Source: a virus. From it: a stretch of DNA of 42,605 nt. The stretch lies in the IMG/VR virus record IMGVR_UViG_3300009506_000072, positions 1-42,605 of that record; one strand, given 5' to 3'. Positions 8,506 to 21,967 of the stretch are shown piece by piece. Under the pieces are notes generated by a model. It worked only from the letters and a program-made list of their open reading frames with translations, did no database searches and had not been told where the DNA came from. The translations under genes were made by a program, and so were the position numbers. Positions within the stretch are counted from its first letter, which is position 1. Each line of letters opens with the position of its first letter.

Positions 8506-9240
8506 ATGGCTGCTCCTTCTCTTGGTACGGCTGGTACCCTGGTAGCAAATTCTGGGGTTACTCAAATCACTGTGTACTACCCCACTGGTAGTGCCGGAGA
8601 TATTGTTATCATTCACGGTTTAGGTCAAGGAGCGGTGTATATAAACGCTTCTGGGTTTACGCCTATTTATCAGTCTATTGGTCCACCAACTAAACTTTTA
8701 GCTTGGAAAAGGGCAACGTCTACCTCGGGGGGTAGTACTACCCTTTCATACGTTTCGGGGTCAAATGTTTTAAAGGGTATTTGTTATAGATTTACAAATT
8801 GTATCGCCGCAGGAGACCCACAAGAAATTTATCCTACGGAGTACCAATATCAATCAAACGGGGCTTCATATTACTGCCAAATTCCTAGTATCACTACGGG
8901 AGGGGCAGATAGATTAGGGGCTGCTTTTTGTGTAGTGAATGATGCAAGTATTTCACTTTATGACGATGCTACCTACTATTCAAAAGAGAATGCCCAAGAT
9001 ACAACTATTGGTGACGACACAACTTTTGCTCTATACACCTACCCTAAATCATCTGCGGGAGCTATTTCCTCTGATCAGTTTGGTTTAAGTGTTATTAACA
9101 CCTCCCATGTTATTTTAGCGAAAATATACCCGGTGAGTTTCACAGAAGATGTTTATAGCGTGAAGGCTAATTACACGGATAAGGTTTGTGGTGTGGATGA
9201 TGTGGATATTACCAGTGTTGCTGGTGCAGATACGGCTTGA
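8506..9240 (+). CDS. Probable fibre tip/adhesin, beta-rich
   Basis: 244 residues, one base after the previous stop. It is beta-rich with no membrane segment or enzyme motif: GTLVANSGVTQITVYYPTGS, IVIIHGLGQGAVY, LLAWKRATSTSGGSTTL, CYRFTNCIAAGDP. This pattern, including an AWKRA strand before a Gly/Ser turn, is like single-domain concanavalin- or jelly-roll-type tip proteins at the end of fibre operons. Its position as the last gene of the cluster fits a tip. The stop codon overlaps the -35 box of the promoter at 9237. Confidence 0.65.
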   Translation: MAAPSLGTAGTLVANSGVTQITVYYPTGSAGDIVIIHGLGQGAVYINASGFTPIYQSIGPPTKLLAWKRATSTSGGSTTLSYVSGSNVLKGICYRFTNCIAAGDPQEIYPTEYQYQSNGASYYCQIPSITTGGADRLGAAFCVVNDASISLYDDATYYSKENAQDTTIGDDTTFALYTYPKSSAGAISSDQFGLSVINTSHVILAKIYPVSFTEDVYSVKANYTDKVCGVDDVDITSVAGADTA

Positions 9241-9267
9241 CAATTTCGATTAATTAAGTATTATAAT
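9237..9267 (+). promoter_or_regulatory. Candidate sigma70 promoter before the coiled-coil gene
   Basis: TTGACA at 9237-9242 and TATAAT at 9262-9267 are both perfect boxes, but the spacer is 19 bases. An alternative -10, TATTAT at 9259-9264, gives a 16-base spacer. It sits in a 44-base AT-rich gap directly after the fibre cluster, and AAGGAGG follows for ATG 9285. It would separate fibre expression from the next genes. Confidence 0.5.
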
Positions 9268-9284: not shown

Positions 9285-9710
9285 ATGTCTCACATGAGTA
9301 TCAAAGAACCAAAGAAGAATACCCCCACTCCAAAAGGCCCTGAGGAGATTTCCATTCCCGCTCTGGGTACTTCGGTAGAAGAGCTTTCTACTGAATACAA
9401 GAAGTTGGATGCTATGTTGGGGGCAATCAATGGTCGTATCGAGGAAGAAAACCAGAAGGTTGTTGCCGCTCAAGAGCAGATTGTCGCTCTTCGTAATCAG
9501 GGACTGCAAGTCGTTGGACAGGCCAATGTTTTAGCTCGTCAGTTGAGCGGAATGGGTATAGACGCCCGAAAATTGGGTGCAACGCCTGCTCCTCCAGCCG
9601 TAAATTCGCCCAATTTTTCGCCTTCTGAGGCTGAAAATGAGGTCGAAGTATCTGAGCCTGAAGAGTTTAACCCTGTTTCGAGCATCAAGAACCGTTTTGC
9701 CCGTCGTTAA
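9285..9710 (+). CDS. Coiled-coil structural or assembly protein
   Basis: 141 residues. A Pro/Lys-rich N-terminus (about residues 1-25) precedes a helical segment at about 28-90 (LSTEYKKLDAMLGAINGRIE ... QKVVAAQEQIVALRNQ). The C-terminus is Pro- and acid-rich, ending IKNRFARR. The start is set by AAGGAGG eight bases upstream of ATG 9285. The MSH- start repeats that of two fibre proteins. It may be a fibre assembly factor or a virion accessory protein; no family is recognised. Confidence 0.7.
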   Translation: MSHMSIKEPKKNTPTPKGPEEISIPALGTSVEELSTEYKKLDAMLGAINGRIEEENQKVVAAQEQIVALRNQGLQVVGQANVLARQLSGMGIDARKLGATPAPPAVNSPNFSPSEAENEVEVSEPEEFNPVSSIKNRFARR

Positions 9711-9786
9711 TACCTTCTGTGCTTTATTAGATGTGAGAGCGGATTCACGCTAGTAAGGCCCAGGATAAGAAACTAGGAGGTATAAA

Positions 9787-10242
9787 ATGGGCAGCGAATT
9801 TGATTATACGTATGAAGAACGGCAACGCGATATCAATGCGGGGCTGTATCAGAAATTTTACATTGAAACTCCAGTCGGAGACATGGAGTTCACCATTGGT
9901 GCCGAGACAGGTGAGGTTATTACCGTAACCGCACAGATGGTAGACCCTGCGGGCGATGCTCTAGAGAACGAGTATGTACTCCCCTTCCAGGTTACTTCAG
10001 ATGCAGATGGTTATACCCCAGCCGCACCTGCTAACATTACAGTTGCAGCGACTACTGGAACTATTCTAGCAGACTACCCTGGTTATGTAGCTAGTGAGAG
10101 CTTCCAAGCTGTTTCAGATGATGCTGGTGCTTTTGTGTTTACTTTCACTGATTCCGCTGGTGGGGCTGTAACTTGTTATTTGGCTTGTGATCTCCCCAAC
10201 GGTGCCCACGTAGTAAGTGATGCAATTACCTTTACTGCGTAA
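9787..10242 (+). CDS. Ig-like/beta-sandwich virion protein, candidate decoration protein
   Basis: 151 residues. A charged N-terminal segment (about 1-30, YTYEERQRDINAGLYQKFYI) is followed by an all-beta domain of alternating Thr/Val strands and Gly/Asp turns (GEVITVTAQMVDPAGDAL, FVFTFTDSAGGAVTCYLAC). This resembles the Big/Ig-like modules displayed on phage particles. The ribosome site is AGGAGG seven bases before ATG 9787. It is followed at once by an intrinsic terminator, so it is probably the last gene of a short, well-transcribed unit, as expected for an abundant particle protein. Surface decoration is an inference. Confidence 0.65.
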   Translation: MGSEFDYTYEERQRDINAGLYQKFYIETPVGDMEFTIGAETGEVITVTAQMVDPAGDALENEYVLPFQVTSDADGYTPAAPANITVAATTGTILADYPGYVASESFQAVSDDAGAFVFTFTDSAGGAVTCYLACDLPNGAHVVSDAITFTA

Positions 10243-10265: not shown

Positions 10266-10297
10266 ATGGGGACGGTTAGCCGTCCCCATTTGTTTAT
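10266..10297 (+). terminator. Intrinsic terminator after the Ig-like protein gene
   Basis: A perfect 10-bp stem (ATGGGGACGG 10266-10275 with CCGTCCCCAT 10280-10289) with a TTAG loop is followed by TTGTTTATTT. It lies 24 bases after the stop at 10242 and before the membrane-protein gene. Confidence 0.85.
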
Positions 10298-10327
10298 TTA
10301 CTGGGGGCGAACTTAGGGAGGCACTGT

Positions 10328-10783: not shown

Positions 10784-11007
10784 AGGCCACACTGTTACGG
10801 ATTCCGGTCAATCCTCATCCGTTTGATATTGAGCATAACATGAAAAAAGAATTTCAACGAGAAATTCTGTTTTCTTTGCTCGAAGAAGTAGAACAATTCT
10901 TGGTTGATTTAGAGTTAACTCCAGAAGAATTAGATACTAGCCGCCTGCGCAATTTGCGGGAAAAAGTTTGCGCACGAAAGAAAGAATTGCATGAGTATAA
11001 GTATTGA
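10738..11007 (+). CDS. Small helical protein overlapping the upstream gene
   Basis: 89 residues, with an N-terminus of MSISGIYKAVKSRGLKATLL followed by a charged helical region (FQREILFSLLEEVEQFLVDL). ATG 10738 lies inside the end of the membrane-protein gene and has AGGGAAACG upstream, so expression by coupling is likely. The stop codon (11005-11007) lies inside the -35 box of the sigma-gene promoter. Unknown function. Both overlapping frames look protein-like, but I am less sure of this one because the overlap is 46 bases. Confidence 0.6.
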   Translation: MSISGIYKAVKSRGLKATLLRIPVNPHPFDIEHNMKKEFQREILFSLLEEVEQFLVDLELTPEELDTSRLRNLREKVCARKKELHEYKY

Positions 11008-11032
11008 CAAACAAACAACCTACGAGTATACT
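11004..11032 (+). promoter_or_regulatory. Strong sigma70 promoter for the phage sigma gene
   Basis: TTGACA (11004-11009), a 17-base spacer, then TATACT (11027-11032). This is one base off consensus with the ideal spacing. Transcription would start near 11039, so the leader to ATG 11052 is very short. It lets host RNA polymerase transcribe the sigma gene independently of the surrounding structural operon. Confidence 0.75.
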
Positions 11033-11051
11033 GTATTAGGTTGGAGGATTG

Positions 11052-11819
11052 ATGTCGTCAGGATGGTTTGCAGATTTAGGGTGGTGGGACCAACATGCCG
11101 CCTATGCTGCGTTTAATGCTTATAGATCTGACCCGACTGATCAACTATTTACTGAGGCTATTACCTTATCCCTTCCCATAATCCGCGTAGTTTATTCCAC
11201 CCAAAAATTCAAAGTATCATATGCAGGAGATGAGGACGACCTCATTTCTCACGCTGCCTTGACCATAACTAAAGCTCTTCCTAAAATGATAGAAAAACCA
11301 GTTGAAAAGCTAGACAACGATAAAAAATACATGCGATATTTGTTTACCTGTGTGATCAATGCCTTCTACAGAGAGTACGATATCTTACACGGCAAACAGA
11401 ATAAGCTTACAAAGAAGATCATTGAGAAGCATGACCCTGAGGATATGTATAAAGAAGCGGTTGGGGTAAAGGCCCTGGAAGCGGACCTTACACTCCAGAG
11501 AATCCCTCAGCAGCTACTGGATTACGCCATGGAGTGTGTCCGGTTTGAAGGTAGCTCACGAAAAATATGTAAGTATATTTTAGAGCAAATGATTGATGGT
11601 AGAGAAATTGCTAAGTCGGTTCTTCAGCTAATGGGTTGTAAGAACCGACATTTTTTTATTCATTACTGTGAGAGCATCCTTTTTCAGGCATTTCTACTCC
11701 TGAGAAGGAGAAAGCCCTATTCGGTAGAAGAAAGTTTCAATGAACTGGGTGGCTATGAAGATATGGAACCTTCTTTTGATTTAGATTTTTTCGTAGGGGA
11801 AGGATATGTGGAGGTATAA
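11052..11819 (+). CDS. T4 gp55-like late sigma factor
   Basis: 255 residues, against 185 for T4 gp55. I chose ATG 11052 because TTG 11049 lies too close to the GGAGG at 11043-11047. Residues about 38-112 read as sigma region 2: ITLSLPIIRVVYSTQKF, GDEDDLISHAALTITKALPK, then YMRYLFTCVINAFYREYD. T4 gp55 has the same order: a LIAEGLSKRFNF-like helix, a helix ending in ASIKGLHNF, then AYITQACFNAFVQR. A helical middle part (about 155-215) has no gp55 counterpart and might be a remnant of region 4. The C-terminus, EPSFDLDFFVGEGY, resembles the gp55 tail SLDFLYE that binds the sliding clamp. It has its own promoter and an internal terminator hairpin. It is expected to direct host RNA polymerase to late promoters. 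Confidence 0.7.
   Translation: MSSGWFADLGWWDQHAAYAAFNAYRSDPTDQLFTEAITLSLPIIRVVYSTQKFKVSYAGDEDDLISHAALTITKALPKMIEKPVEKLDNDKKYMRYLFTCVINAFYREYDILHGKQNKLTKKIIEKHDPEDMYKEAVGVKALEADLTLQRIPQQLLDYAMECVRFEGSSRKICKYILEQMIDGREIAKSVLQLMGCKNRHFFIHYCESILFQAFLLLRRRKPYSVEESFNELGGYEDMEPSFDLDFFVGEGYVEV
11615..11657 (+). terminator. Perfect intrinsic terminator inside the sigma gene
   Basis: GTCGGTTCTT (11615-11624) pairs perfectly with AAGAACCGAC (11640-11649) around a 15-base loop. A plus seven T residues (11651-11657) follow. It spans codons about 188-202 of the sigma-like gene, on the coding strand. In form it is a standard intrinsic terminator. Whether it works when ribosomes translate through it is unknown; it could attenuate the message or act only on untranslated RNA. 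Confidence 0.6.
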
Positions 11820-11820
11820 G

Positions 11821-12048
11821 ATGACTAGAGAAGAAATTATTGAAGCTATTCTGGAAAGTCAGTGGATTCAAAAAGCTACAGCGAGTATCAAGCGTCGGGG
11901 GACAGAGGGGGCATTTACCAAGTCAGCACGACGGGCTGGGTACTCGGATACTTTGGCATACGCTCGGGATGTAATGTCTGGAAAAGTAAAAGGTAACAAG
12001 AAGAGGGCCAATTTTGCGCTGAATGTTAACAAGCGCAGTAACAAGTGA
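11821..12048 (+). CDS. Small basic protein with a short conserved-looking viral motif
   Basis: 75 residues starting at ATG 11821, six bases after GGAGG (11810-11814), directly behind the sigma stop. An in-frame ATG at 11806 lies upstream of that site and is less likely. A helical N-terminus is followed by RRGTEGAFTKSARRAGYSD. The pattern KG/TEGxFTxxAxRAG is one I associate with short proteins of unknown role in large phages and viruses. The C-terminus is Lys/Arg/Asn-rich. Co-transcription with sigma suggests a nucleic-acid-binding or regulatory partner, but this is inference. Confidence 0.65.
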   Translation: MTREEIIEAILESQWIQKATASIKRRGTEGAFTKSARRAGYSDTLAYARDVMSGKVKGNKKRANFALNVNKRSNK

Positions 12049-12055
12049 TTGAGTT

Positions 12056-12190
12056 AGGTGCCTCAGATGTGGACACTGTATGGTTAGTGCTCTAAAATTT
12101 TATGGAACTACTCGATATATGATCGAGGAACACTAAACCAAGCCGTTGAGAACTGCTGTACAGTGCAAGCCCGTTTGAGGCGCCTTTTTA
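12056..12190 (+). ncRNA. Nested, probably structured RNA with terminator-like 3' end
   Basis: This fills the longest gene-free gap in the window (12049-12199). Four helices nest: AGGTGCCTCA 12056-12065 with TGAGGCGCCT 12176-12185 (10 bp, one G-U); CACTGTA 12074-12080 with TACAGTG 12159-12165; GGTTAGTG 12082-12089 with CACTAAACC 12131-12139 (one bulged A); and CTCGAT 12111-12116 with ATCGAG 12122-12127 (ATATG loop). Two near-identical segments, CAAGCCGTTGAG (12139-12150) and CAAGCCCGTTTGAG (12166-12179), lie in the 3' half. Five T residues (12185-12189) follow the closing stem. I do not recognise the family; it is not a tRNA. It could be a stable small RNA, a 3' untranslated structure or a regulatory leader for the gene at 12200. 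Confidence 0.55.
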
Positions 12191-12199
12191 AGGTGACAA

Positions 12200-12451
12200 A
12201 TGGAGAATACCAACATCCTCTCCCCTATCTTCGGGGAGCTTATAGCTTTAGCGGATCAAGTAGCACAGATAGATGATGAGGTTATTGAGGCGTACTGTAT
12301 GACTCTCGATAACGAAGAGTCTTTTATACCAGAACTCATCGGTATTATCGGCCCTATGGCATTTAAGCAGTTAGTATGTTATTATGGCAATCAGTCGATT
12401 CGTATACCTGCTCCAGAAGAAATTCTGGATAGGTTGAAGGAGAATCCATGA
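12200..12451 (+). CDS. Small protein resembling the N-terminal part of Mor-type regulators
   Basis: 83 residues, helical and acidic. Residues 40-75 (FIPELIGIIGPMAFKQLV then YYGNQSIRIPAPEE) recall the dimerisation segment of Mor/C-type phage activators, in which an ELxxLxGxxxxxxLVxxxGGxxIYIP pattern occurs. The C-terminal helix-turn-helix of Mor is absent, so a DNA-binding activator is not supported; it may be a small structural or regulatory protein. The start follows AAGGTGACA, 10 bases after the T tract of the structured RNA. The stop overlaps the next ATG. Confidence 0.65.
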   Translation: MENTNILSPIFGELIALADQVAQIDDEVIEAYCMTLDNEESFIPELIGIIGPMAFKQLVCYYGNQSIRIPAPEEILDRLKENP

Positions 12452-12984
12452 GAACTGGGGACGATATTGACATAGTTCATGAACTATCTGGTGAACTATT
12501 AGCCGCAGTCACTTCCGGGGGAAAGGTCAGTAACGAGCTGATTGATTACGCCGAAAATGTTATTCAAGCACATCAGGTGTATGTACAACTACTTTATGTT
12601 GGCATGGTAGTGGGTCAAATTAACTCTTTGGCTGACTATTTAAATGCGATGGACCAACTTGCGGCTGACATTGACATAGAAGACCTTGCAGAAGCGGATG
12701 TTCCCGTAAAGGTGCGGGGTATCACCGCGTTTAATCAAGCAGTTAAAACCAAGGTTGATATTATCTCCAGCATGATGGCTTCCAAAGATGCTATCGGTAT
12801 GCTTACTTCCTCTTTGAGAGAGACGTTCGGACAGAAGGATAGTCTTCTCGAAGAGGGTGGAGCGGATAGTGGTATGATGCAAAAGCTGAAAGATATGTCT
12901 CCAGAGGTTAGACAACGGGTATTGGGTGCTGCTGTTTCTAAATTACGCGAATCAATGGTAGGAGACGAAGAAGATGACGGATGA
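12448..12984 (+). CDS. All-helical acidic protein, weak candidate for terminase small subunit
   Basis: 178 residues, predicted almost entirely helical (LIDYAENVIQAHQVYVQLLY, FNQAVKTKVDIISSMMAS, MQKLKDMSPEVRQRVLGAA). AAGGAG precedes ATG 12448, which overlaps the previous stop. It lies about 2 kb before the large terminase gene. The size and the central long helices fit a T4 gp16-like small terminase, which is otherwise missing from this stretch. However, I see no clear DNA-binding motif, so this stays a weak suggestion. The stop overlaps the next gene by 11 bases. Confidence 0.7.
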   Translation: MRTGDDIDIVHELSGELLAAVTSGGKVSNELIDYAENVIQAHQVYVQLLYVGMVVGQINSLADYLNAMDQLAADIDIEDLAEADVPVKVRGITAFNQAVKTKVDIISSMMASKDAIGMLTSSLRETFGQKDSLLEEGGADSGMMQKLKDMSPEVRQRVLGAAVSKLRESMVGDEEDDG

Positions 12985-16999: not shown

Positions 17000-17047
17000 G
17001 GCTAATCCTGCTTTATTACAGTGACTTGACGAGTCGGAGGACTTATT

Positions 17048-17401
17048 ATGGATTTTCGTGACAAAGTAAACAAGCACATCGAGGAAACACTTATGGAAGG
17101 TGTTCTTCCAGACGTGGATGACATCCTGGAAATAGAAGTTCCTAATCAGAAGCCGGGTCCACAACGAAGTGGGGATGAGGGTGGTCCGAAGAGTGCTCGG
17201 GCAGCCGAGGCTACCTTCACTGATCACGTTGCGCCCCCGAACTTTGCTGGGGCTAGCCAAGGGAAAAAGTTCCCTTGCCCTCCGTTTAGTAATGCTAATC
17301 GGAGCATCCCTCCTGCAAAGTTTGGTAGTGCGGCTAAGATTAGAGAAGAAGCTATTCAAGCTGTTCTTGCCGACTTGGAAGCCATTCAGGACGAAGAATA
17401 A
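17048..17401 (+). CDS. Small linker-rich protein after terminase
   Basis: 117 residues. A helical N-terminus (FRDKVNKHIEETLMEGVLP) is followed by a Gly/Pro/Ala-rich, probably disordered middle. The C-terminal helix is ILADLEAI-like (REEAIQAVLADLEAIQ). GGAGG lies before ATG 17048. A perfect 8-bp inverted repeat lies inside at 17258-17277. The layout (helix, flexible linker, helix) suggests an adaptor or assembly factor in the terminase-portal region. No family is recognised. Confidence 0.65.
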   Translation: MDFRDKVNKHIEETLMEGVLPDVDDILEIEVPNQKPGPQRSGDEGGPKSARAAEATFTDHVAPPNFAGASQGKKFPCPPFSNANRSIPPAKFGSAAKIREEAIQAVLADLEAIQDEE

Positions 17402-18510: not shown

Positions 18511-20298
18511 ATGCCTGAAGGTAAGATAATTCAGGGTCTAATGCGGATGACTGGGCTGGATAAAGTTATCCAGCGTGAGGTAGCTCTACGGGCACAGCTC
18601 GGAGGGATTCAAACTCAGTTTGCCGCAGGAGATGATCTCGTTGGGGATCTAGCCACGATTGAGGAGACTCTGAGCCAGTTTAATATGATCACTCGTATGC
18701 ACCGTGAACGTAGAATGCGTTACCGGGACTACGAAGCGATGGATAATTACGGGGATGTTTCAGTTGCTCTTGATATCTACGCAGAAGAAGCAACCCAAAC
18801 GGATCTGGTCAAGGATAAGAATGTTTGGGCTACAGGAGATTCAGAGGCAGTTAAAGAGATAGAAGCTTTTTTTGTCAAACATCGTATCCATACGCTCATT
18901 CATGGTTTTGCCCGAAACCTTGCGAAATATGGAGACATGTTTCTTTCTGTTAAGTATAGTTATGAAGGTATTGATCGCATACTGTATTTACCTCCAGACT
19001 ACATTTATCGGATTGGTCCAAGCATTGATCAAATTAAACATTTCAAACTAGAACAACAGCTCGCTAAGGTTTCCCCTCGTCAAGATGGTTTACTTCTCCC
19101 GTGGGAATGTGTCCATATGCGGCTGCTCTCTTTCGGATTCTCCACCCTTTATGGGCGGTCTATGATTGAACCTGCTCGTAAGCGTTGGTTGCATTTGAAG
19201 TTGCTGGAAGATTCTATTGCGATCTACCGTTTGAATCGAGCGGTTGAGCGGATTATTTTTTACATTGATGTGGGTGCAGCTTCACCTTCCGAAGCTCTAA
19301 GAATGGTCAATACCTATAAACGTAAGTTCGGTAACAAGCGTTCTTATATTGATCCTTCACAGGGGACATTCGAGCAACAGTATGACCCGCACAACATGCT
19401 GGAAAACATTTACTGGCCTGTCAATAGTGCAACAGAGAGATCTCGGATTGAAAAATTAGCTCCTCCACCAGAGCAGGGGCAACTTCAAGACTTGGATCAC
19501 TTTAATGAAAAGCTGTATGTAGCGTTGGGTATTCCGCGTGATTACCTTACTGGAGAAACTTCCGGCGCGTGGAATAGCCGAGAGGCTTTGGCTCTTCAAG
19601 ATGTGCGGTTTTCTCGTAAGCTCCATGCACTCCAAATTGCTCTTTTGGAGGGTCTGGAGACGCTGTGCCGTTTCCATTTAGCAGTAAGATGGGGGGATGC
19701 TGATAAGGCAGCTTCTGCACAATTTAAGCTCCATTTGGCGGATATTTCCAAGGTCGCTAGACAGCAATACGATACAATCATGATCAATCGTATGCAGCTC
19801 TTGACTATGATGAATGATCTTGGAAATCAGATGAGCTTTAACCGAGATGTATGGTTGGCTTTCATTGTAGAGAATTTCTTCCCCGATGTACCAAAGGAGT
19901 TAATTCCTCGTTTGATTATTCCGGATGCGGAATTAGCCGCAGCGAATGATGCGATAATGCAACAACAACAAGCTTTGGCTGTAGCCTCAAAACCGGCTGT
20001 TAAGTCTACGGGTGGTAAGAAACCAGTTGCTAAGAAAAAGAAATCAGCGACTGAAAGTATTAAACACACCATTTTGAATGACATACTACGTAATAACCTT
20101 ATGGAAGAGGAAGAGAGGGAGATGTTAGAAGACTATCTCCTAAATGATAATGGTGTGTTGCACCCTAGGGATCTTTCTTTCACTCTGCAATCACCACCGA
20201 AAATTCCACTTAACACGTTGCAGGAGTTGGTCAATAAACACTCTAAAACTTCTGCCCAGAGCGGGTTGCTTGTAGAAAACAATAATGGGGGTAAGTAG
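18511..20298 (+). CDS. Portal protein, T4 gp20-like
   Basis: 595 residues. Features of the gp20 family are visible: YGDVSVALDIYAEEATQ at 80-96, YGDMFLSV at 140-147, LPPDYIYRIGP near 160-170, and RAVERIIFYIDVG near 250. An ERSRIEKLAPPPEQGQLQDL segment near 315 and a LGIPRDYLTGET segment near 345 occupy the places of the gp20 segments around TTLPGG and ALRVPxSYL. It forms the dodecameric ring at the capsid vertex through which DNA enters and leaves. The C-terminal ~100 residues are Lys-rich with a long helical tail. An 8-bp inverted repeat lies at codons about 16-21. Strong identification from several motifs in order. Confidence 0.88.
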   Translation: MPEGKIIQGLMRMTGLDKVIQREVALRAQLGGIQTQFAAGDDLVGDLATIEETLSQFNMITRMHRERRMRYRDYEAMDNYGDVSVALDIYAEEATQTDLVKDKNVWATGDSEAVKEIEAFFVKHRIHTLIHGFARNLAKYGDMFLSVKYSYEGIDRILYLPPDYIYRIGPSIDQIKHFKLEQQLAKVSPRQDGLLLPWECVHMRLLSFGFSTLYGRSMIEPARKRWLHLKLLEDSIAIYRLNRAVERIIFYIDVGAASPSEALRMVNTYKRKFGNKRSYIDPSQGTFEQQYDPHNMLENIYWPVNSATERSRIEKLAPPPEQGQLQDLDHFNEKLYVALGIPRDYLTGETSGAWNSREALALQDVRFSRKLHALQIALLEGLETLCRFHLAVRWGDADKAASAQFKLHLADISKVARQQYDTIMINRMQLLTMMNDLGNQMSFNRDVWLAFIVENFFPDVPKELIPRLIIPDAELAAANDAIMQQQQALAVASKPAVKSTGGKKPVAKKKKSATESIKHTILNDILRNNLMEEEEREMLEDYLLNDNGVLHPRDLSFTLQSPPKIPLNTLQELVNKHSKTSAQSGLLVENNNGGK

Positions 20299-20666
20299 TG
20301 TCAGTTACTTATCAAAAATTGGCTAATAGGTTACAGAGCGATCCGAAAGCCTTAGATTATACGCAGAATCAGTTAATGTACTTGATGTCCCGAATCTTTT
20401 TTCATATTGGGGATGCTTTGGCTTCTGGCGAAGATGTTTATCTAGAAGGGTTTGGAAGGTTTTACCCGGACTGTAAACCCCCAAGAAAGATCAAATCCGG
20501 ATTAACGTCAGAAGAGCATATGACTGATTTCAAAGTGTTCGTTAAATTTAATGCTTTCAAACAACTGAATACCCAGGTTCAAGAGCTTATGAAACGCTTG
20601 GGTATAGAAGAATATTTAGGAGGAGAAGATGCTTCCACACCAGAAGAATCCGCCAGAAAAACCTGA
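20298..20666 (+). CDS. HU/IHF-like DNA-binding protein
   Basis: 122 residues starting at GTG 20298, which overlaps the portal stop. The layout is HU-like: N-terminal helices (LMYLMSRIFFHIGDALASGE at 26-45), the diagnostic strand VYLEGFGRFY at 47-56, a basic arm KPPRKIKSG at 60-68, and a closing strand/helix FKVFVKFNAFKQLNTQV. In HU the same places hold a VxLxGFGxFxxxxRxxRxxRNP arm and a FKPGxxLKxxV end. The long RNP arm is degenerate, so DNA bending may be altered. Such proteins condense or bend DNA. Its position directly after the portal gene suggests a role at packaging or in the head. ATG of the next gene lies inside its end. Confidence 0.75.
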   Translation: MSVTYQKLANRLQSDPKALDYTQNQLMYLMSRIFFHIGDALASGEDVYLEGFGRFYPDCKPPRKIKSGLTSEEHMTDFKVFVKFNAFKQLNTQVQELMKRLGIEEYLGGEDASTPEESARKT

Positions 20667-21583: not shown

Positions 21584-21967
21584 ATGAACCAGCATGAGAA
21601 ATTAGATACTTTTATAACAGAAATGTTAGCTAGAGATTTTACGGAAGGTCAGATTGCTGAGCTACTTCTATTCGAAGATGACGTTTTAACAGAGACAGTT
21701 CGGCGTGTGCGTCGTAAGGTTAGTGGTATTAACGTTACGATGAGAAAAACTGGTCGTCCTAATCCTTTAAGGTCTCAAAGAGCCAAACGAGCTGCTCGTG
21801 CTCATCGGGCTTCTCGTTTGCAGGCCATGCGAAGATTCCAGAGATCACCTAAGGCAAAACAGATGCGTCGTGTGATGTCTCGTGTAAGAAAAACTAAACC
21901 TCGTCGTCCCACGGTAAAAAAACATGGGCCACCGCGCAGAGGTTATAAACCAGTTCGTAGGCGGTAG
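21584..21967 (+). CDS. Very basic protein with helical N-terminus
   Basis: 127 residues. Residues 1-45 are acidic and helical (LDTFITEMLARDFTEGQIAE LLLF) and may form a helix-turn-helix. From residue about 46 on the protein is dominated by Arg and Lys (RSQRAKRAARAHRASRLQAM, RRPTVKKHGPPRRGYKPVRRR), a pattern expected of a nucleic-acid-condensing tail. AGGAG precedes ATG 21584. An internal DNA-packaging or ejected protein is a reasonable inference from charge and position. No family is recognised. Confidence 0.7.
   Translation: MNQHEKLDTFITEMLARDFTEGQIAELLLFEDDVLTETVRRVRRKVSGINVTMRKTGRPNPLRSQRAKRAARAHRASRLQAMRRFQRSPKAKQMRRVMSRVRKTKPRRPTVKKHGPPRRGYKPVRRR

Follow-up and report, generated by a model that had tools for sequence, protein, structure and literature searches.

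A diverged sigma-like gene with its own sigma70-type promoter and a structured RNA in a family of large phages, and a candidate late promoter word in their genomes

The stretch of DNA analysed here (the window) is the whole of IMG/VR record IMGVR_UViG_3300009506_000072, 42,605 bases, and it carries a sigma70-type promoter, a gene for a sigma-like protein and a structured RNA that are common to eight distinct phage records. Computation gives the conservation of all three parts, the sigma-like predicted fold of the protein, the covariation of the RNA, and a late promoter word with its positions; that the protein binds the word, that the RNA terminates transcription, and when these events would occur are what we infer from them. 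We consider it probable that host sigma70 gives rise to the phage sigma, that the phage sigma turns on late genes by way of GCTTTATT, and that the RNA serves as a terminator ahead of the packaging genes. The sigma unit would then be a unit of early type that lies within the late block. RNA polymerase with host sigma70 would read its TTGACA/TATACT promoter and yield the phage sigma, which would use its region-2 domain to capture the host core enzyme and would direct it to single-element late promoters of the form G-CTTTATT-NN(N)-RTG ahead of virion genes. The early transcript would end in the rod-shaped RNA, where the closing stem and U tract would act as an intrinsic terminator and keep transcription of the sigma gene from running into the packaging genes. 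The protein appears to be a new sigma family paired with a new promoter word, and the unit offers a testable early-to-late switch for large phages, with a sigma, the sigma's own promoter, a probable target promoter and an associated RNA.

Judged by the PHROG matches of its virion genes, the window derives from a T4-like contractile-tailed phage. Downstream of the sigma unit lies the terminase (itself with weak PHROG matches), and beyond it stand genes with PHROG family matches for portal, prohead protease, major capsid and tail sheath. On this downstream side the packaging and structural surroundings are as a sequence-only reading had described them; the placement is less unusual than that reading held, since in Vibrio phage nt-1 the gp55 gene comes after a head gene and a sigma gene beside virion genes is therefore not unique. 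By capsid protein the closest named phages are Listeria phage LIS04 (36%) and Bacillus phage SP-15 (35%). The sigma-like protein had no match among 50,697 phage records, and of the contigs of bacterial and archaeal genomes, 43 stretches fit a pattern, none of them a confirmed relative. Eight further IMG/VR records do carry the gene; two of these are near-identical in the sigma-unit stretch, so that the window and the others amount to eight distinct loci, and the proteins of the seven other loci are 60-81% identical to that of the window. A search with the neighbouring gene at 12448-12984 led to the eight contigs already obtained with the sigma gene, so in neither search did this neighbour turn up without the sigma-like gene. 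The carriers, all of them uncultured records here, form a family of large phages. In one of them (G002) the sheath gene exits one end of the record and resumes at the other, so this record may be nearly closed; the remaining long records may be partial. Two small proteins of the window's virion region are recorded in passing: one of 122 amino acids after the portal gene (20298-20666), HU/IHF-like by eye, and one of 127 amino acids between the portal and protease genes (21584-21967), the C-terminal half of which is very rich in arginine and lysine.

The promoter of the sigma unit lies on the plus strand at 11004-11032 and consists of TTGACA (11004-11009), a 17-base spacer and TATACT (11027-11032), with 11 of 12 consensus bases. 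Promoter-like sites numbered 10 in 5 kb against 9.2 in shuffled sequence, and a single TTGACA-17-TATACT site is therefore not beyond chance. The pattern TTGACA-17/18-TA(T/C)A(C/G)T nevertheless precedes the sigma-like gene in all eight distinct loci, and because of this conservation we accept as real the near-consensus, host-type promoter that had been proposed from the window. In L005 it lies farther from the start codon (112 bases). Among 325 upstream regions of the eight records, 27 hold a TTGACA/TATACT-type pattern, and the sigma gene itself accounts for seven of them; the sigma promoter of the eighth record went uncounted, as the gene start called by our script covers the site. The promoter is followed, also on the plus strand, by a Shine-Dalgarno sequence, GGAGG (11043-11047), and by the gene of the 255-residue sigma-like protein (11052-11819), which starts with ATG (a TTG at 11049 is an alternative) and has its counterparts in the seven other distinct loci. 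A second strong sigma70-type promoter, TTGACA-16-TATTAT, was seen at 9237-9264 before the gene at 9285, and several relatives have sigma70-type sites at what is apparently the same place.

Directly after the sigma gene the window has an open reading frame for a basic protein of 75 amino acids (11821-12048, plus strand), which had been counted as part of the cassette. It is present in only three of the eight loci, the relatives that have it being L005 (with its near-copy L006) and L011, and it gave one distant phage match (E 3e-6); we dropped it as a core part and treat it as optional.

The RNA occupies 12051-12193 on the plus strand, with a closing stem of 12057-12072 and 12170-12184 and a U tract at 12185-12189. 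The structured RNA with a T tract that had been thought to end the unit was thereby substantiated: the window sequence folds at z = -4.7 (range among the eight relatives, -1.75 to -5.82), although that of L003 taken alone folds scarcely better than its own shuffles (z -1.75). The eight sequences, of 141-150 nucleotides, have the closing stem and a second stem in common; the interior holds a short third stem, a large bubble and, in most, a small apical hairpin, and the minimum-energy fold of L005 differs inside. RNAalifold gave 28 pairs, 23 of which show changes on both sides (22 in another analysis), a count that 0 of 500 shuffles reached; the apical hairpin, misaligned between two subgroups, was excluded from it. 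The covariation score was 0.687, compared with 0.115-0.298 for slid controls. The closing stem is paired in 98.3% of the cells of the alignment, and within a few bases after it there are at least four consecutive U in all eight sequences. Across 724,846 bases, which include parts of LIS04 and SP-15, a covariance model found one strong copy per record, always at the sigma unit, and its sole other match was the L106 copy itself on the opposite strand (17 bits). No Rfam family matched at the thresholds tested.

The simplest role for this RNA, on the evidence of its sequence, would be that of an intrinsic terminator, at which sigma70-driven transcripts of the sigma gene would stop short of the packaging genes. 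It has a G+C-rich stem with a U run directly after it, and a simple terminator scan (loops of 3-8) missed it because 97 bases separate the arms. Such a role accounts for the closing stem and the U run, but not for the conserved interior, and on the RNA alone we therefore also considered, as a minority view compatible with the switch set out above, that it is a 6S-like decoy for polymerase or a switch for the next gene. The rod with its large bubble and, mostly, its apical hairpin would fit this, as would the covariation of the second and third stems, which a terminator does not need, and the position of the U tract, which ends 0-13 bases ahead of the next start codon among the relatives and 10 bases ahead in the window. 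The 6S form of the proposal, to which the rod shape had led us along with short stretches that we took to be of 6S type, was rejected: RF00013 matched in none of four records at E<=10, while the control was matched in 8 of 14 genomes; Rfam scans of three loci (one at E<=5, two at E<=10) gave no 6S match; and at the E. coli ssrS locus the phage RNA model found only a short match of 6.9 bits on the opposite strand and matches of negative score.

The window has no GCTTTATT between 9729 and 17010, and transcription of the packaging genes beyond 12200 therefore seems forced through the RNA. It is conceivable, if rather doubtful, that the RNA serves specifically to regulate the sigma switch, the sigma gene, the RNA and a gated packaging operon making up one early-to-late checkpoint; the RNA might then stop the host-sigma polymerase and let the late polymerase pass, or might itself bind polymerase. 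In the open-licence papers searched we found neither a checkpoint of this sort nor anything describing such a unit with a structured RNA. The reason for so elaborate an ending of the sigma unit is a directly testable question.

The gene that follows (12200-12451, plus strand) encodes 83 amino acids and is weakly Mor-like. Pfam Mor matched two of the four relatives scanned (E 0.10 and 0.11) and did not match the window's own protein, which gave a PHROG late transcriptional activator at E 0.012 and is too short for the second DNA-binding half of the Mor type. An AAGG-type Shine-Dalgarno sequence stands between the U tract and the start of this gene in the window and L002 only.

The candidate target of the sigma came from a stranded count of words in 264 gene-upstream regions, drawn from the window and three long relatives, with genes called by a simple longest-ORF script and not by a trained gene finder. 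CTTTATT, usually as GCTTTATT, topped the 7-mers, level with a Shine-Dalgarno word, at 24 of 264 regions in the sense direction and 2 antisense; these counts differ by one between two runs as the upstream regions end at slightly different bases. Contigs of further relatives, unused in the discovery, gave 10 sense and 1 antisense among 61 regions, and over the eight records CTTTATT was the commonest of its 42 anagrams (34 against 11 for the next). These records are related, so the site counts are not independent, and G008 (the record of L006), near-identical to G002 at the place of the sigma unit, was left out of the site statistics. With the sites at hairpins removed, 34 noncoding and 32 coding sites were left, a rate ratio of 16.2 given that noncoding DNA makes up about 6% of the sequence. 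The upstream sites also share flanking bases that the coding ones lack, with G at -1 in 22 of 30 against 4 of 32, and RTG 2-3 bases downstream in 19 of 30 against 2 of 32.

A -35 partner for CTTTATT was sought and rejected, no column from -50 to -2 exceeding 0.45 bits. CGTTT and GTTTT each occur at -45 to -13 in 9 of 30 sites (shuffled maximum, 7); by inspection the end of a single orthologous upstream gene accounts for most of this excess, and a weak upstream element besides CTTTATT is possible. With the same script the T4 late region, used as a control, gave TATAAATA as its top word (12 sense and 6 antisense, of 23) and no GCTTTATT. The T4 word was conversely found in 0 of 264 and 0 of 61 upstream regions here, and in 0 of 19 in the near-copy G008.

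The positions of the word are those of late genes. Putative late promoters GCTTTATT lie on the plus strand of the window at 9721-9728, before the gene at 9787 (each of the eight records has a CTTTATT ahead of a member of this gene family), and at 17010-17017, between the terminase and the gene at 17048, a place at which it stands in all eight records. CTTTATT also lies upstream of a third gene, situated 0.7-1.7 kb beyond the sheath, in all four distinct records in which that gene was found, one of these sites being hairpin-flagged. In the three long records the DNA polymerase gene is flanked on either side by about 29 kb or more in which CTTTATT has no noncoding instance (in G003 this stretch reaches the end of the record), and sigma70-type promoters were found in this region. 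These genomes thus hold a single-element, non-sigma70 late promoter class, and by association GCTTTATT is the likely target of the sigma described here. The orthologue of the gene at 9787 is duplicated in two relatives (G002:C1:136432-137776 and G004:C1:2203-3109), with a GCTTTATT before each copy in G002 and before the first copy only in G004, where CTTTATT follows a T. At 10266-10298 the window further shows a strong terminator-like hairpin and after it TTTGTTTATTTACTG, possibly a variant late promoter that adjoins a terminator.

Given that the tie between the sigma and GCTTTATT is one of association, the protein could be a sigma while the word is read by a second factor that we failed to recognise, or marks termination or processing of transcripts; we rate this as improbable, if still worth weighing. 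Eight of the 38 gene-upstream CTTTATT adjoin terminator hairpins and may be T tracts, and one of the three long records encodes, in another open frame of 306 amino acids, a sub-threshold helix-turn-helix like sigma region 4 (G002:C1:80642-80713; 18.6 bits). The sites free of hairpins nevertheless keep the G at -1 and the RTG downstream, and the word recurs at matching late positions throughout the eight records. A region-2 search of nine records with PF04542 recognised no other sigma; this profile does not match the sigma-like protein itself, and could therefore miss another diverged sigma as well. A search for a phage-type RNA polymerase led to nothing, and its controls were silent too.

That the protein is a sigma was proposed from a likeness to T4 gp55, and at the level of the predicted fold the sigma reading was supported. 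Sequence searches of Pfam, PHROGs and the PDB gave nothing convincing, and no curated sigma profile was significant; the best were NCBIfam sigma70 profiles at E 0.041 and 0.058, far under the cut-offs and seen with two of the eight members. By our reading, both of these sub-threshold alignments start in region 2 and extend to the C-terminal domain, which fits a region 2 with a region 4 after it. An AlphaFold model built from eight orthologues has a mean pLDDT of 63.5; ten-residue means were 55-86 over residues 11-110 and 70-88 over 151-220, and fell below 50 at 112-150 and in the tail. The top six Foldseek rows were a sigma32 complex, two models that we read as B. subtilis SigD and SigH, and WhiG complexes, with a best E of 0.03 for the full model and none below 0.001. 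The best 50 entries of VIA-align were all sigma factors, sigma complexes or RNA polymerase holoenzyme or initiation complexes, and by our reading of titles, chains and ranges the matched chain in them is the sigma. First among these 50 was gp55 (Z 9.9, 131 residues, rmsd 10.2). Z scores of such size can arise by chance for helical bundles, and it is therefore the uniform make-up of the list, not Z alone, that carries the weight of the sigma reading.

Superpositions on region 2 covered 78-97 residues at 2.2-3.2 A (pro-sigmaK: 97 residues, rmsd 2.9, Z 9.3), and place a predicted region 2-like domain at residues 10-116 (11079-11399, plus strand), where the earlier reading had put it. According to PMC7892883, Y97 of gp55 stacks on a promoter base; in our own alignment this residue falls on the invariant Y96 of the sigma-like protein. 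Modest model confidence, the lack of a significant sequence profile and the absence of any Foldseek E below 0.001 weigh against the proposed switch. The protein is predicted to belong to the sigma70 superfamily at the level of the modelled fold only. Profile searches miss so diverged a sigma, and structure search together with an unbiased count of upstream words finds both halves of the system.

Membership in the gp55 family itself did not survive. In a profile-profile comparison with 14 gp55 sequences hhalign gave E 0.27 and the wrong register, BLASTP gave nothing meaningful, and TATAAATA is found in 0 of the 325 upstream regions. An additional helical part, absent from gp55, had been noticed at about residues 155-215 and was recovered in the model at 150-220 (11499-11711, plus strand). 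Folded alone, residues 128-232 form a helical helix-turn-helix domain with a mean pLDDT of 81.7 (93-97 over about 158-217). Its structural matches were weak, with Z up to 5.4 (an AlpA complex, KorA, sigma region 4 and sigma54 entries, plus unrelated ones), and Foldseek with this domain alone gave no match under E 2.4. It is plausible from the model that the domain is a sigma region 4; a -35 element would be expected if so, and that none was seen counts against the proposed switch.

The tail that follows (11712-11816, plus strand) is acidic and aromatic, contains FDLDFF, and is poorly conserved and of low model confidence, one aspartate being its sole invariant residue across the loci. Clamp-binding peptides have a motif with which such a tail can be compared, and by eye three of the eight tails resemble it: those of the window (DLDFF), L002 (DLGYF) and L003 (DLGMF). 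This likeness, and the place of gp55 at the head of the structural rows, would suit a late sigma of T4 type, its tail binding the replication clamp and late transcription coupled to replication; a late sigma dependent on a sliding clamp is what the sequence alone had suggested. We think this very unlikely, because no clamp was matched, the polymerase is of family A, and the tail keeps one invariant aspartate. The peptide is not kept in L005, L009, L011 and L012; the clamp families PF02916, PF09116 and PF00712 matched in none of the three long, possibly partial records (the bacterial clamp family was matched in 11 of 14 control genomes, none of which is known to carry gp45 as a control for the other two); all three long records encode a family-A DNA polymerase (E 7.6e-76 or better); and the T4 late word is missing from the upstream regions. 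It is possible that a diverged phage clamp or the host clamp is involved.

Also very unlikely is that the protein is not a sigma and its helical model resembles one by chance, for while its sequence has no significant match, the comparison with the gp55 profile fails, pLDDT is modest and helical models can reach middling Z, the 50 best structural entries are uniformly sigma or sigma-containing, region 2 superposes over 78-97 residues at 2.2-3.2 A, two sigma70 profiles align in the expected order, and the genomes have a matching single-element promoter class.

In its proposed form the system is of an already known kind, in which a phage sigma works with the core polymerase of the host and late promoters consist of a single element. 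By analogy the unit would work like the late sigmas of T4, Kayvirus and phiEco32, common membership in a family not being claimed. T4 gp55 has the region-2 fold and short single-element late promoters in common with it, the latter without a -35 element (PMC2988020); in gp55, region 2 is followed by a long helix and then another (PMC7892883), and our model has a very long helix at residues 90-126 and then another helix, its second half at low confidence. The sigma-like protein differs from gp55 in lacking sequence or profile similarity, in its extra C-terminal helix-turn-helix, in its promoter word and in that no clamp was found.

Kayvirus (phage K type), as described in PMC7698491, has host sigma70 early promoters and, in its virion gene region, late promoters TGTTATATTA without -35 that are ascribed to a phage sigma; likened by this description, it shares both promoter classes with the present phages and has a different word. 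phiEco32 gp36 and 7-11 gp47 are, according to PMC8948821, phage sigmas on host core polymerase, the promoter of the former single-element (tAATGTAtA) and that of the latter bipartite (GTAAtg-16-aCTA); they too are likened by description, and their words differ from ours.

A sigma-70 family factor of LIS04 and SP-15 is a further system to set beside this one. Kinship with the LIS04 sigma was rejected (hhalign E 0.29), a search with that sigma, run without a control, led to nothing, and LIS04 differs in that its sigma gene is far from the terminase and that no such RNA was found in the parts searched. In LIS04 the most frequent upstream 8-mer is GCTCTATT, which differs from GCTTTATT by one base, at 5 of 44 sense and 0 antisense (L110, 5000-54000), and that of SP-15 is CGTTTATA, at 5 of 27 (L111, 1-40000); these words are possibly the late promoters of the two phages.
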